Assembly: GCA_003223245.1 (NCBI GenBank)
Contig: QHYI01000116.1
Location: 1 to 48,017 of the forward strand
Length of the DNA stretch: 48,017 bases
Origin: Acidobacteriota bacterium
GTDB lineage: Bacteria > Acidobacteriota > Terriglobia > Acidiferrales > UBA7541
Direction of reading: 5' to 3'
The position numbers and the translations under genes were made by a program. Positions 6,559 through 9,284 of this stretch are shown here, piece after piece (positions within the stretch are counted from its first letter, which is position 1; each line of letters starts with the position of its first letter). A model generated the notes under the pieces. That model did no database searches, had not been told where the DNA came from, and saw only the letters and a list, made by a program, of their open reading frames with translations.

Positions 6559-7715
6559 CAGAAATAGCCCTCGCGTTTCTTCAATTCCATCGATCCTTCT
6601 TCGTCGTGGTCGATGGCGCGGTTCTCGCGCTCGGAGCGGCGGAAAGAAATCATTTCTTCAATGATCTTCGGCACCGTGTCTGCTTCGGAACGAATCGCGC
6701 CCGTGCACGGAACGCATCCGAGCGAACGCATGCGGCACTTGATCCATTGCACTTTTTCGCCGGGCAAAAGTTCGTCGGGAGAATAAATCAGCACGATGGA
6801 ACCGTTGCGTACCACCGCTTGGCGTTCGCGGGCATAATAGAGCGGAACGATGGGAATATTTTCCGCGTGGATGTAAAGCCACACGTCGAGCTCCGTCCAG
6901 TTCGAAAGCGGAAAAACGCGAATGCTCTCCGATTTTTCGATGCGGGAATTGAACAGGTTCCACAGTTCCGGCCGTTGATTCTTGGGATCCCACTGGCCTT
7001 GCGAATCGCGAAACGAGTAAATGCGCTCCTTGGCGCGCGACTTTTCCTCGTCGCGCCGCGCTCCGCCAAATGCCGCGTTGAATCCACCCGCCGCAAGCGC
7101 GTCCAGCAACGCTTTCGTCTTGAGCAGCCCGCAGCATCTCTGCGTGCCGAGGACAAAAGGATTCGCGCCCTGCTCCAGTGCTTCGCGGTTTTGATGCACG
7201 ATCAGTTCGGCGCCGATTTCGCGCGTGTACGAATCGCGAAACTCGATCATTTCCGGAAATTTGTAGCTGGTGTCGATGTGCAGCAGCGGAAACGGGATTT
7301 TCCCCGGATAAAAAGCTTTCTGCGCCAGGCGTAGCATCACCGAAGAATCTTTGCCGATGGAATACAGCATGACCGGGCGGGAAAATTCCGCAGCCGCTTC
7401 GCGCAGGATGAAGATGCTCTCGGCTTCGAGTGTAGCCAGATGCCCAAGCCGCCGTTCCAGTCCCCATGAGGGTGGCGCCTCGGAAACTTCTGGGCTCAGC
7501 GTTTCGTTGTTATGGAAACCCGCAGACGAAAGTTCTCCTGTCACAGCGTGGCCGGGGCGCAGCTTTGTCCCGAGTGCAAGCGAGGGAATGCTGCGCCCCA
7601 TCTCAGCACCGTCGATCCGCTGGGAACCCGAGTTGTAGGGGCGCTCATTCGGCGAGCCATTGTTACTGGACGCCGGCAGCGTTTGCTGCGGCGGCTGCAG
7701 CCCTGAAAAAGTCAT
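6558..7715 (-). CDS. cysD: Sulfate adenylyltransferase small subunit CysD, with an unusual N-terminal extension
   Basis: Catalytic ATP-sulfurylase subunit (PP-loop fold) that adenylates sulfate. The core starts near [20 protein letters not shown] and shows the PP-loop [58 protein letters not shown] and the C-terminal KKREGYF. The family is about 300 residues; this frame gives 385 because about 85 residues of low-complexity, Ser/Pro/Gly-rich sequence precede the core. ATG at 7713-7715 is preferred since GAAGGGACCAAGG sits directly upstream; a start further upstream has no site. The extension lies next to hairpin-rich repeat-like DNA (7741-7860) and may derive from it. First gene of the operon, behind an attenuator-like leader. 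The core identity is secure, the start is moderately so. Confidence 0.92.
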
Positions 7716-7740
7716 ATCCTTGGTCCCTTCACCAAAATGT

Positions 7741-7860
7741 CCCGACAACCCGTGCAAAAGGCGGCTCCGGTGTCATCCCGAGCCGTAGCTCAGGCCTTTG
7801 CAGCTAGAGCCTTTAGGCCTGAGGGGTCAGCTTTGTTTTTCGCAATGTCCGGCCTGACCG
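7741..7860. repeat. Hairpin-rich, repeat-like segment in the cysD 5' leader
   Basis: Between the attenuator terminator and cysD the DNA contains a perfect inverted repeat with 9-base arms, CTCAGGCCT (7789-7797) and AGGCCTGAG (7815-7823), separated by 17 bases, with further symmetric AAAGG/CCTTT elements inside. It resembles the short palindromic interspersed elements common between acidobacterial genes. No second copy was found in this window, so dispersal is not shown. Confidence 0.35.
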
Positions 7861-7880
7861 AGTTTCTTCAACAGACTCCC

Positions 7881-7922
7881 AAAAACACAAAACCCACCTG
7901 CCAGCTTTTCTGGCGGTGGGTT
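7881..7922 (-). terminator. Intrinsic terminator in the cys operon leader (attenuator terminator)
   Basis: Read on the minus strand: AACCCACCGCCAG, loop AAAAG, then CTGGCAGGTGGGTT, a 13-bp stem with one bulged A, followed by the T-rich run TTTTGTGTTTTT. It lies 31 bases past the stop of the Cys-rich leader ORF and about 165 bases before cysD, in the sense of the operon and with no complete gene ending just before it. Its 5' arm can also pair with bases 7970-7980 of the leader (TCTGGCG with CGCCAGA), giving an alternative antiterminator. Confidence 0.75.
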
Positions 7923-7953
7923 TAAGAAAACTGAATCGGCTAGATGCTTTGCT

Positions 7954-8019
7954 TTAGACGGCTAGCCTTCCCGCGCCAGAATGTTGTGTGCGACACATAC
8001 AACATGCGCAACACAGCAT
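7954..8019 (-). CDS. Cys-rich leader peptide of the cysDNH operon (21 residues)
   Basis: A 21-codon ORF beginning MLCCACCMCR: five of the first nine residues are cysteine (TGT TGC ... TGT TGT ... TGT). It sits between a sigma70-like promoter (8072-8100) and an intrinsic terminator (7881-7922), upstream of genes that make sulfite for cysteine synthesis. This is the arrangement of amino-acid attenuators: when Cys-tRNA is short the ribosome should stall on the Cys run and leave 7970-7980 free to pair with the terminator's 5' arm; when Cys is plentiful it runs to the stop codon at 7954-7956 and masks that segment. A second small stem, GGCTAG/CTAGCC (7962-7967 with 7938-7943), straddles the stop codon. 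The ribosome site is weak (AGCGGG directly before ATG), and the frame continues upstream to a possible GTG. Function is inference from layout. Confidence 0.65.
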   Translation of the reverse strand: MLCCACCMCRTQHSGAGRLAV

Positions 8020-8071
8020 CCCGCTGTTTGCAGGGTTCTGGCGAAGTTGGCTTGCGTAACTCACGGAGAAC

Positions 8072-8100
8072 AGTGTAACTTGCCTGCCCGTTAGATGCAA
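8072..8100 (-). promoter_or_regulatory. Sigma70-like promoter of the cys operon leader
   Basis: On the minus strand TTGCAT (8095-8100) is followed after exactly 17 bases by TACACT (8072-8077). Transcription would begin near 8065, about 46 bases before the leader ATG. The next gene upstream on this strand ends at 8295, so a promoter is expected here. Confidence 0.55.
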
Positions 8101-8110
8101 CCCTGCCGAG

Positions 8111-8140
8111 AATCGATACTTTTTCTGCATACTATCGATT
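8111..8140. promoter_or_regulatory. Inverted repeat, candidate operator upstream of the cys promoter
   Basis: Perfect 8-base arms AATCGATA (8111-8118) and TATCGATT (8133-8140) flank a 14-base A/T-rich spacer, so arm centres are 22 bases (about two helical turns) apart. The element lies just upstream of the putative -35 box, at roughly -46 to -75, where activators of sulfur genes often bind. No regulator gene is adjacent; the bound protein is unknown. Confidence 0.45.
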
Positions 8141-8294
8141 TTTTGCTGTGCCCCTTGTCGGGCTCGCCAGGCGGTCAATTGACCTTACGGAACGTTATGC
8201 CGCGGGCTGGGGGTGAGAAGAGGAGTAAGAAATGTGCGTGTCGCTCGTTCGATCGAACGTATCCAAGCAGCGCAAGCTTGGTCTTTGCCTGGCG

Positions 8295-9284
8295 TCAGTT
8301 GCCGGAGGCGGTGGTGTCCAGCGGCGCGTAGTAGCCGTTGCGCGTGCGGGCCACGAGTTTGCCGCGTCCCCGCGGCGGAATCACTTCCACGCTGACGGTA
8401 CGGAACGTGCCGTCACGCTTCGTATTGGTGGGATAGTAGGCCAAGGTGTACTGGTTGCGGATGTCGTGCGCCACCTGCTGGCAAATGGTATGCACATCTT
8501 CCACGTTTTCCGGGAAGTACGCGACGCCGCCCGAGGCTTTAGCGATGTCCTCCAGCGCCCGTTTGGCTTTTTTTGCGCTTTTCTTGCTTTCCTGGCTAAG
8601 CAAGCCAATCGTGTAAATCACGGTATCCGTCTTCTGAACTTCATGGATCGTTTTTTCGAGTGTGAAATGGCTTGAATTGTCCTCGCCATCGGTGACGATC
8701 AGCAAGACGTGCTTGTCCAGGTTGGCTTTCTTCAAGTGATCCAGTGAGCCGATGATGGCATCGTAAAGCGCGGTGCTGCCGCGCGAATCGATGCGCTCCA
8801 GGGCCTCTTTCATCTCCGGAACGTTGTTGGTAAAGTCCTTGTCCAGATCCAGATAAAAATCATCGTTGAAATTCACGACAAAGACTTGGTCCTGACGATT
8901 GCTCGCCTGCACGAGAGTGAGGGCAGCTTCGTTGACCTTCGGGCGCTTGTCGCGCATGCTGCCGCTATTGTCAATCACTAGCCCCATCGCTACCGGCACA
9001 TCTTCGCGCTTGAAAACAGCCAGCTTTTGCTCGACCTTGTCTTCGAAAACCCGGAAATTTTGCGCCGTCAAGCCGTCCGCGAAACGCTGGCGGTCATCGA
9101 GAACGGTCGTGTGCAAGACAACCAGGTTGACCCGGCTGACGATGGTTGCGCCCTGTTTTTCGGTGTTGTTCTGCCCGGGGGGCGGAGGAACGGGATTAGC
9201 TACAGGAATCTGCGCGCGGAGCGAAGGCGCAAAGAATAAACCTGCGCCCATGAAAAATAAAAATACAAGAAGAGCTACTGACAC
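8295..9284 (-). CDS. Secreted VWFA-related acidobacterial domain protein (second of a pair)
   Basis: An exported protein of about 329 residues with a von Willebrand A-type domain. After a hydrophobic signal (VALLVFLFFMGAGLFFAPS-LRAQ) comes a proline-rich linker, then NLVVLHTTVLDDRQRFADGL, FRVFEDKVEQKLAVFKREDV and the MIDAS-type metal site DNSGSM with later Thr (RGSTALYDAI) and Asp (VTDGEDN). The C-terminal NQYTLAYYPTNTKRDGTFR and RNGYYAP blocks are typical of the phylum-specific VWFA family. GTG at 9282-9284 is taken as start since it begins the signal peptide and lies just after the stop of the preceding gene; no good ribosome site is visible, so coupling to the upstream gene is likely. Ligand unknown. 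Confidence 0.82.
   Translation of the reverse strand: MSVALLVFLFFMGAGLFFAPSLRAQIPVANPVPPPPGQNNTEKQGATIVSRVNLVVLHTTVLDDRQRFADGLTAQNFRVFEDKVEQKLAVFKREDVPVAMGLVIDNSGSMRDKRPKVNEAALTLVQASNRQDQVFVVNFNDDFYLDLDKDFTNNVPEMKEALERIDSRGSTALYDAIIGSLDHLKKANLDKHVLLIVTDGEDNSSHFTLEKTIHEVQKTDTVIYTIGLLSQESKKSAKKAKRALEDIAKASGGVAYFPENVEDVHTICQQVAHDIRNQYTLAYYPTNTKRDGTFRTVSVEVIPPRGRGKLVARTRNGYYAPLDTTASGN

Follow-up and report, generated by a model that had tools for sequence, protein, structure and literature searches.

E. coli trpL and hisL are ribosome-mediated attenuators of the trp/his type from Proteobacteria. Mycobacteria carry polycysteine leaderless short ORFs, which are reportedly also the subject of Canestrari 2020. 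These Cys-rich, leaderless uORFs stand before cysteine and sulfur genes (PMC4633059, Shell 2015; PMC1262725). According to PMC1262725, the earlier prediction of these ORFs, the Cys codons sit close to the stop and conserved terminator hairpins were not found; PMC4633059 states that with them Cys-directed attenuation would be seen for the first time in bacteria. A Cys-codon uORF followed by an intrinsic terminator, uORFC-8-2, precedes cysS in Rhodobacterales (PMC8632094). An earlier note on the DNA analysed here had described Cys leader peptides as known in mycobacteria, and they are known there, but uORFC-8-2 places them outside that group too. A leaderless leader peptide with attenuation is also already known, because the 5' end of S. 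meliloti rnTrpL is the ATG of the trpL leader peptide (PMC7298713). For the C. glutamicum ilvBNC attenuator, a three-hairpin model with terminator, the authors discuss leaderless initiation (PMC11857589). Among Acidobacteria almost no predicted attenuator had an associated function (PMC2965389).

The window, the whole stretch of 48,017 nucleotides that was analysed, carries on its minus strand what is very probably a trp/his-type ribosome-mediated transcription attenuator that would sense charged tRNA-Cys in front of cysDNH-TauE. This presumed operon runs from cysD (sulfate adenylyltransferase subunit 2, 7715-6558; TIGR02039 and NF009214 above cut-off; ORF open from 7757) through cysN (sulfate adenylyltransferase subunit 1, 6558-4792; NF003478 and TIGR02034 above cut-off) and cysH (phosphoadenylyl-sulfate reductase, 4795-4088; NF002537 and TIGR00434 above cut-off) to a TauE/SafE-family transporter as its last gene (4190-3267; PF01925), all on the minus strand.

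The leader region, also on the minus strand, begins with a -35 box TTGCAT (8100-8095) and a -10 box TACACT (8077-8072), separated by the 17 bases that the earlier note had given. Seven bases downstream of the -10 box lies GTG 8064, the probable start of a leader peptide ORF of 36 codons plus TAA at 7956-7954 (8064-7954, VSYASQLRQNPANSGMLCCACCMCRTQHSGAGRLAV); corresponding ATG or GTG starts are present in loci L046, L052 and L053. The 21-codon ORF first proposed here (MLCCACCMCRTQHSGAGRLAV, 8019-7954) shares this frame, and its five Cys codons are in the sequence, but its ATG start is corrected to the likelier GTG. The putative sensor is the run TGT TGC GCA TGT TGT ATG TGT (8013-7993), with Cys at codons 3, 4, 6, 7 and 9 of the ATG ORF. 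Segment 1 (CGCCAGAA, 8043-8036) lies within the leader ORF and can pair with segment 2 (TTCTGGCGCGGG, 7981-7970), the 5' arm of the predicted antiterminator, with a core TTCTGGCG at 7981-7974. Nested in the antiterminator is a stem GGCTAG/CTAGCC (7967-7938) with the stop codon in its loop. Segment 3 (CCCACCGCCAGAA, 7920-7908) serves as both the 3' arm of the antiterminator and the 5' arm of the terminator and contains CGCCAGAA at 7915-7908. Segment 4 (CTGGCAGGTGGG) and the T-run TTTTGTGTTTTT (7904-7881) complete the intrinsic terminator, as also seen in the family alignment.

These segments can form three helices in the window. Helix 1:2 joins CGCCAGAA at 8043-8036 with TTCTGGCG at 7981-7974 (-14.8 kcal/mol), and helix 2:3 joins the same TTCTGGCG with CGCCAGAA at 7915-7908, extended by GG/CC (-18.2 kcal/mol). 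Helix 3:4 has 14 pairs with one bulged A within the terminator at 7923-7881 (-24.9 kcal/mol). The pairing of segment 2 with the 5' arm of the terminator, the small stem over the stop codon and the stem with T-run 165 bases before cysD had all been proposed earlier and are present; that proposal also claimed a complete set of trp/his-type parts, and every part it named exists, but its list lacked segment 1. Folding of the window leader gave z -3.34 against 200 shuffles, and no shuffle equalled it (0/200). A scan with simple consensus models found no promoter and no minus-strand terminator at the window leader, a miss presumably due to the degenerate hexamers and the bulge in the stem. Searching positions 7500-8500 with the Rfam covariance models gave no family match, the single match being a chance one to a lncRNA (E 1.5).

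The element resembles the trp/his-type attenuators in its run of codons for the end product, its mutually exclusive 1:2, 2:3 and 3:4 helices and its intrinsic terminator before the first structural gene. It differs in that it would sense Cys, its start codon lies almost at the presumed 5' end of the transcript, the loop of a conserved stem nested in the antiterminator holds its stop codon, and similar copies stand before many unlinked operons. With uORFC-8-2 it shares a Cys-codon uORF and an intrinsic terminator; that element is alphaproteobacterial, occurs only before cysS and usually has two tandem Cys codons at positions 14-15; in sequence, the two were compared through the Rfam search, which gave no match. 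The window gene is cysD, and no cysS was found among the annotated target clusters. S. meliloti trpL/rnTrpL is alike in being a leaderless attenuating leader and differs in its amino acid, Trp, and its phylogenetic place, Alphaproteobacteria, whereas the C. glutamicum system concerns branched-chain amino acids in Actinobacteria.

We examined the region before cysD across the order. A search for cysD in 24 genomes, 21 of them without the attenuator, gave 0/24 matches, which is uninformative alone, so it was redone on 95 genomes including positives. A cysD match (E <= 1e-30) was obtained in 41 of the 95, and a Cys-rich leader preceded cysD or its operon in all 41. The covariance model R1, built from 31 aligned copies and spanning segment 2 to the T-run with the Cys codons left out, matched directly upstream of cysD in 29 of these genomes and at a laxer threshold in four more (G067, G076, G081, G086). 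Seven genomes (G082, G084, G085, G071, G077, G078, G083) had a diverged Cys leader with a hairpin before cysD, while G015 has the leader at the head of an ABC-transporter operon whose end is cysD. A second, distant cysD copy in G084 lies outside the 41/41 count. Every one of the 30 loci with R1 directly upstream, of which G023 contributes two, has at least three Cys codons within 15; the same holds for G067, G081 and G086, and the leaders of the other genomes likewise carry Cys codons. In G088 the Cys run stops just upstream of the model match.

Leaders of this type recur well beyond cysD. A DNA search found matches in 58 of the 95 genomes of the order, and R1 matched 71 of the 95 (E <= 0.01; among the matches listed). 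For genomes drawn from the class, order included, R1 matched 121/399 (E <= 0.001; among the matches listed), and for genomes drawn from the phylum, class included, 11/297, two of which, both weak, were outside the class. Those two (L257, L259) have Cys or Met/Cys codons. At least 189 R1 matches in order and class, among the matches listed, were fetched and rescored; five of the 189 were dropped as antisense or partial, and the remaining 184 were reduced to 109 non-redundant loci. In the genome that carries the window, a second copy stands ahead of a rhodanese-type sulfurtransferase gene (C41), and the further R1 Cys leaders there are one before a nitrite/sulfite reductase gene (C215) and one on C20 (E 0.007). 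We also scanned a terminator-only pattern over genome_contigs (84,980 species). All 34 stretches found were, by title, from Acidobacteriota, among them strain AB60 as well as Silvibacterium bohemicum and Occallatibacter savannae (both Terriglobales), where the terminator accompanies a Cys-rich leader; one record is titled Candidatus Acidiferrales (Terriglobia). Thirty-two of the 34 had at least three Cys codons in a short ORF ending upstream of the hairpin, against about five expected from dinucleotide shuffles. The exceptions were L237, clipped by a contig end, and L230, which has two Cys codons and a peptide that by eye resembles an out-of-frame reading of Thr leaders. Within the acidobacterial class Terriglobia, a switch of the same kind is predicted ahead of many sulfur genes.

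A search of the literature available without subscription for Acidobacteria or Granulicella with attenuation, leader peptide, cysteine and leaderless found no description of the element. Each ingredient is known, and it is the combination, a class-wide set of Cys attenuators, that appears undescribed. The set would carry Cys-directed attenuation, combined with an intrinsic terminator, over to a range of sulfur genes, and would supply a signal for attenuators in a phylum where almost none had an associated function (PMC2965389).

To evaluate pairing, we compared energies within the 109 non-redundant loci with 5000 permutations between loci, in which shared ancestry is partly retained in the result. 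Within-locus pairing was better for helix 1:2 (-15.9 versus -14.1 permuted), helix 2:3 (-20.3 versus -18.0) and helix 3:4 (-25.2 versus -22.8), with 0/5000 permutations as good in each case, and all three results were upheld when permuting within gene groups (0/5000 each). The 2:3 result also held in the 43 loci with a divergent segment 2 lacking TCTGGC (0/5000), and the stop-codon stem likewise paired better within loci than permuted. Segment 3 was taken by fixed windows; windows set by folding, which mis-placed some terminators, led to the same conclusion. Segment 1 was weaker than the other segments, with a perfect complement of at least six bases in 54/109 loci against about 17 expected. 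The cysD leaders of genus g11 (eight loci) have different arms 2 and 3 and retain the pairing, for example CCGAGGGCG with CGCCCTCGG in L315 and TTCGGGGGC with GCCCTCGGA in L316. Combining g11 segment 2 with the window's segment 3 gave weaker duplexes in 8/8, and the window's segment 2 paired more poorly with g11 segment 3 than with its own in 7/8. The alternative stems and compensatory changes that the earlier note had suggested looking for in relatives are thus borne out by the permutation tests and the g11 arms.

From the parts, their conservation, covariation and spacing, all of which can be read off the DNA, we infer the transcription start, translation, stalling and the response to cysteine. 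Transcription would start at GTG 8064 or just a few bases upstream of it, and the ribosome would load near the 5' end and trail RNA polymerase. With ample Cys-tRNA, the ribosome would pass the Cys codons to the stop codon, open the stop-codon stem and cover part of segment 2, so that 2:3 is prevented, the 3:4 terminator forms and transcription ends before cysD. When Cys-tRNA is short, the ribosome would stall on the Cys codons with segment 1 covered and segment 2 free; helix 2:3 and the stop-codon stem would then form, the terminator would be blocked and cysDNH-TauE transcribed. If there is no translation, 1:2 would form and the terminator would stand. The model offers a specific and testable explanation of sulfate assimilation control in a large soil phylum that is poorly understood: the control may act through translation of Cys codons.

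The acidobacterial leaders look near-leaderless, are Cys-rich and stand before sulfur genes, a likeness to the mycobacterial short ORFs that is seen here in the sequence, and leaderless short ORFs with contiguous Cys codons control downstream translation in mycobacteria (PMC9031893, PMC4633059). A similar mode here, in which expression of the next gene would be coupled to translation through the leader and the hairpin would be only a stabiliser or a leftover terminator, is nevertheless improbable. In the window the stop codon of the leader and the start of cysD lie 238 nt apart, with an intrinsic terminator and its T-run in between, and terminator and antiterminator arms covary in the family. 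The window's Cys codons also lie 13-19 codons before the stop, unlike those of mycobacteria. The remaining 28 cysD loci in the cluster have 10-103 nt, in most cases about 30, between the end of the model and the first start. Positions 7771-7799, in the window's gap between terminator and cysD, are 89-97% identical to three other places in the genome (C182, C57, C46). Since this piece is repeated in the genome and the gaps at the 28 other loci are short, a dispersed repeat has probably been inserted into the window's gap.

The start of the leader was examined further in the 109 non-redundant leaders. TANNNT preceded an in-frame ATG or GTG by 5-9 nt in 66/109, compared with 8/109 and 5/109 in the other frames, where the numbers of start codons per frame also differ (209, 53 and 92). 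The spacer histogram in frame 0 peaked at 6, 7 and 9 nt (16, 26 and 21) over a background of about 0-8, and many leaders by eye, uncounted, have TTGC or TTGAC about 17 nt further upstream. TANNNT at about such a distance has been published as the mark of leaderless genes across bacteria, the Acidobacteria among them (PMC3160421). Because start codons of relatives often lie 6-9 nt after the -10 box, the window leader probably starts at GTG 8064 on a near-leaderless transcript. We use near-leaderless as the safer term than leaderless since in three g11 leaders the distance from -10 box to start is, by eye, 11-14 nt.

The Cys codons are specific to one frame and to one position. Frame 0 was taken as the one that in most cases stays open as far as the conserved stop, and the region scored lies outside R1. 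In the 18 codons before segment 2 of the cysD and sulfurtransferase loci (37 non-redundant), Cys made up 25.1% of codons in the stop-reaching frame, compared with 8.3% and 2.4% in the other two; the sulfite reductase loci (n = 11) gave 31.8% against 8.6% and 2.5%. Over the 101 non-redundant loci without aspartokinase, the Cys frequency was 0.03, 0.15, 0.02, 0.16 and 0.08 at codons -1 to -5 before segment 2 and 0.52, 0.64, 0.24, 0.61 and 0.56 at -6 to -10, so that it falls from 0.52 at -6 to 0.08 at -5. This edge is where a stalled ribosome, by the usual size of its footprint, would leave segment 2 free and mask segment 1. Against this, the window's own last Cys codon is at -5, and in 16 of the 101 loci the fixed frame held no or one Cys codon; part of these 16 sense a different amino acid or have an ORF that ends out of this frame. 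The conserved codon spacing, together with the use of a rare codon, is a natural data set on ribosome geometry in attenuation.

A permissive count over any frame classed the 184 R1 matches, among the matches listed, as 148 Cys, 25 Thr and 11 other. One of the last, L133, has a CCC run in an ORF ending just upstream of the model match. Of dinucleotide-shuffled upstream sequences, 26% reach three or more Cys codons in at least one frame, and for this reason we preferred the frame-fixed test. The same figure is what speaks for a spurious Cys-rich frame beside an ordinary upstream terminator; the frame-specific enrichment, the positional edge, the covariation and the 41/41 conservation leave that explanation with a negligible probability. 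A chance origin of the Cys-rich leader is refuted by the comparative data. The Cys run, whose conservation in relatives had been proposed as a check, is conserved there, as shown by the frame enrichment, the position profile, the terminator-only scan and the counts at the cysD loci.

Codon choice also distinguishes the leaders. UGU accounted for 305 of 440 Cys codons in leaders, compared with 30 of 255 in the genes that follow them at these loci. Other NNY codons ended in T in 298/679 cases in leaders and in 4151/13259 in genes, so the preference is not explained by general AT content.

Clusters of R1 targets in the order, annotated via a Pfam search of one member each, comprised, among the matches listed, rhodanese (36), cysD (29), sulfite/nitrite reductase (25), aspartokinase (25), TonB-type outer-membrane beta-barrel (7), siroheme synthase (4), NMT1-type binding protein (3), asd (3) and Porin_5 (2). 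Single targets with an assignment, again among the matches listed, were an SBP_bac_11 binding protein, TauE, ATP-sulfurylase, DAHP synthase, hisG, an ilvB-like gene, a PQQ enzyme, a Mur ligase and a URO-D protein. The class matches outside the order (n = 32, among the matches listed) were 29 Cys and 3 Thr by the any-frame count, and their targets, as judged by eye, include sulfite reductase, rhodanese, TauE-like and cysteine-synthase-like (L209). Some copies precede genes without an evident role in cysteine metabolism (porin, PQQ enzyme, Mur ligase).

Other amino acids are represented too. The aspartokinase loci (n = 8) had Thr at 36.1% of the 18 codons before segment 2. In the window's own genome, a Thr-rich leader MTTIATKRITSKSTTTTMKKTMTASGDGRNS on a similar chassis precedes aspartokinase (L038 1501-1595, plus strand, C196), one of 25 such loci in the order among the matches listed. 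The same genome has a His leader HGHHHYG with terminator about 400 nt before hisG (L040 1501-1589, plus strand, C4; R1 E 0.005) and a Trp-codon leader MNTQLANWSCWYRF before a DAHP synthase gene (L042 1501-1594, minus strand, C179; R1 E 0.02). Branched-chain runs occur as IVVVRLV before an ilvB-like gene (L140 1484-1588, minus strand) and as GVLLLIGVSVVLLI in another genome (L258). That the sensed amino acid should be the operon's end product, as first proposed for the window, agrees with Cys before sulfur genes, Thr before aspartokinase and His before hisG.

The targets bear on whether the peptide itself is the sensor. A Cys-rich peptide could bind a metal, thiol or redox signal and stall the ribosome, so that redox or metal state and not charged tRNA-Cys would be sensed; dense runs such as CCCTCC and CCPCAC could coordinate metal, and some downstream genes encode porins and TonB-type outer-membrane proteins. 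Yet aspartokinase, hisG and DAHP synthase have leaders of the same layout with Thr, His or Trp codons, and for these codon sensing is the straightforward reading. The Cys leaders moreover prefer UGU, a codon rare in the downstream genes, and the number and order of Cys residues vary between leaders. We give a peptide sensor a very small probability, marginally below that of the mycobacterial mode, and retain the sensing of charged tRNA-Cys by codon reading. Cys leaders before proteins of the outer-membrane beta-barrel (TonB-type) and Porin_5 clusters were seen in L081, L086, L088, L106 and L065. For outer-membrane proteins that carry one, the Cys leader suggests roles in the uptake of sulfur compounds, and sulfur roles are what the attenuator predicts for them.

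R1, although built from Cys leaders, matches Thr leaders at about 3e-9 to 5e-6. Because a Cys-built model finds them, the two versions are suggested to be homologous, with convergence as the alternative. Leaders of one genus before cysI (L117) and asd (L165, L171) can be aligned from promoter to terminator, and these alignments appear to be direct evidence of attenuator copying between unrelated operons. We tentatively propose, as a possibility short of even odds, that one ancestral chassis was copied to many Acidobacteriota operons with its sensor codons exchanged, and that attenuators may spread as retargetable modules. The proposed chassis consists of the near-leaderless promoter, the SG-x-GR codons of segment 2, the stop-codon stem and a CCCACC...GGTGGG terminator, and the exchanged sensors would be Cys, Thr, mixed Met/Thr/Cys and others. 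The C20 copy in the window's own genome (L041 1501-1604, minus strand) has a Cys leader CPRCVYSC and a diverged terminator, and the protein downstream, without a Pfam match, looks secreted.
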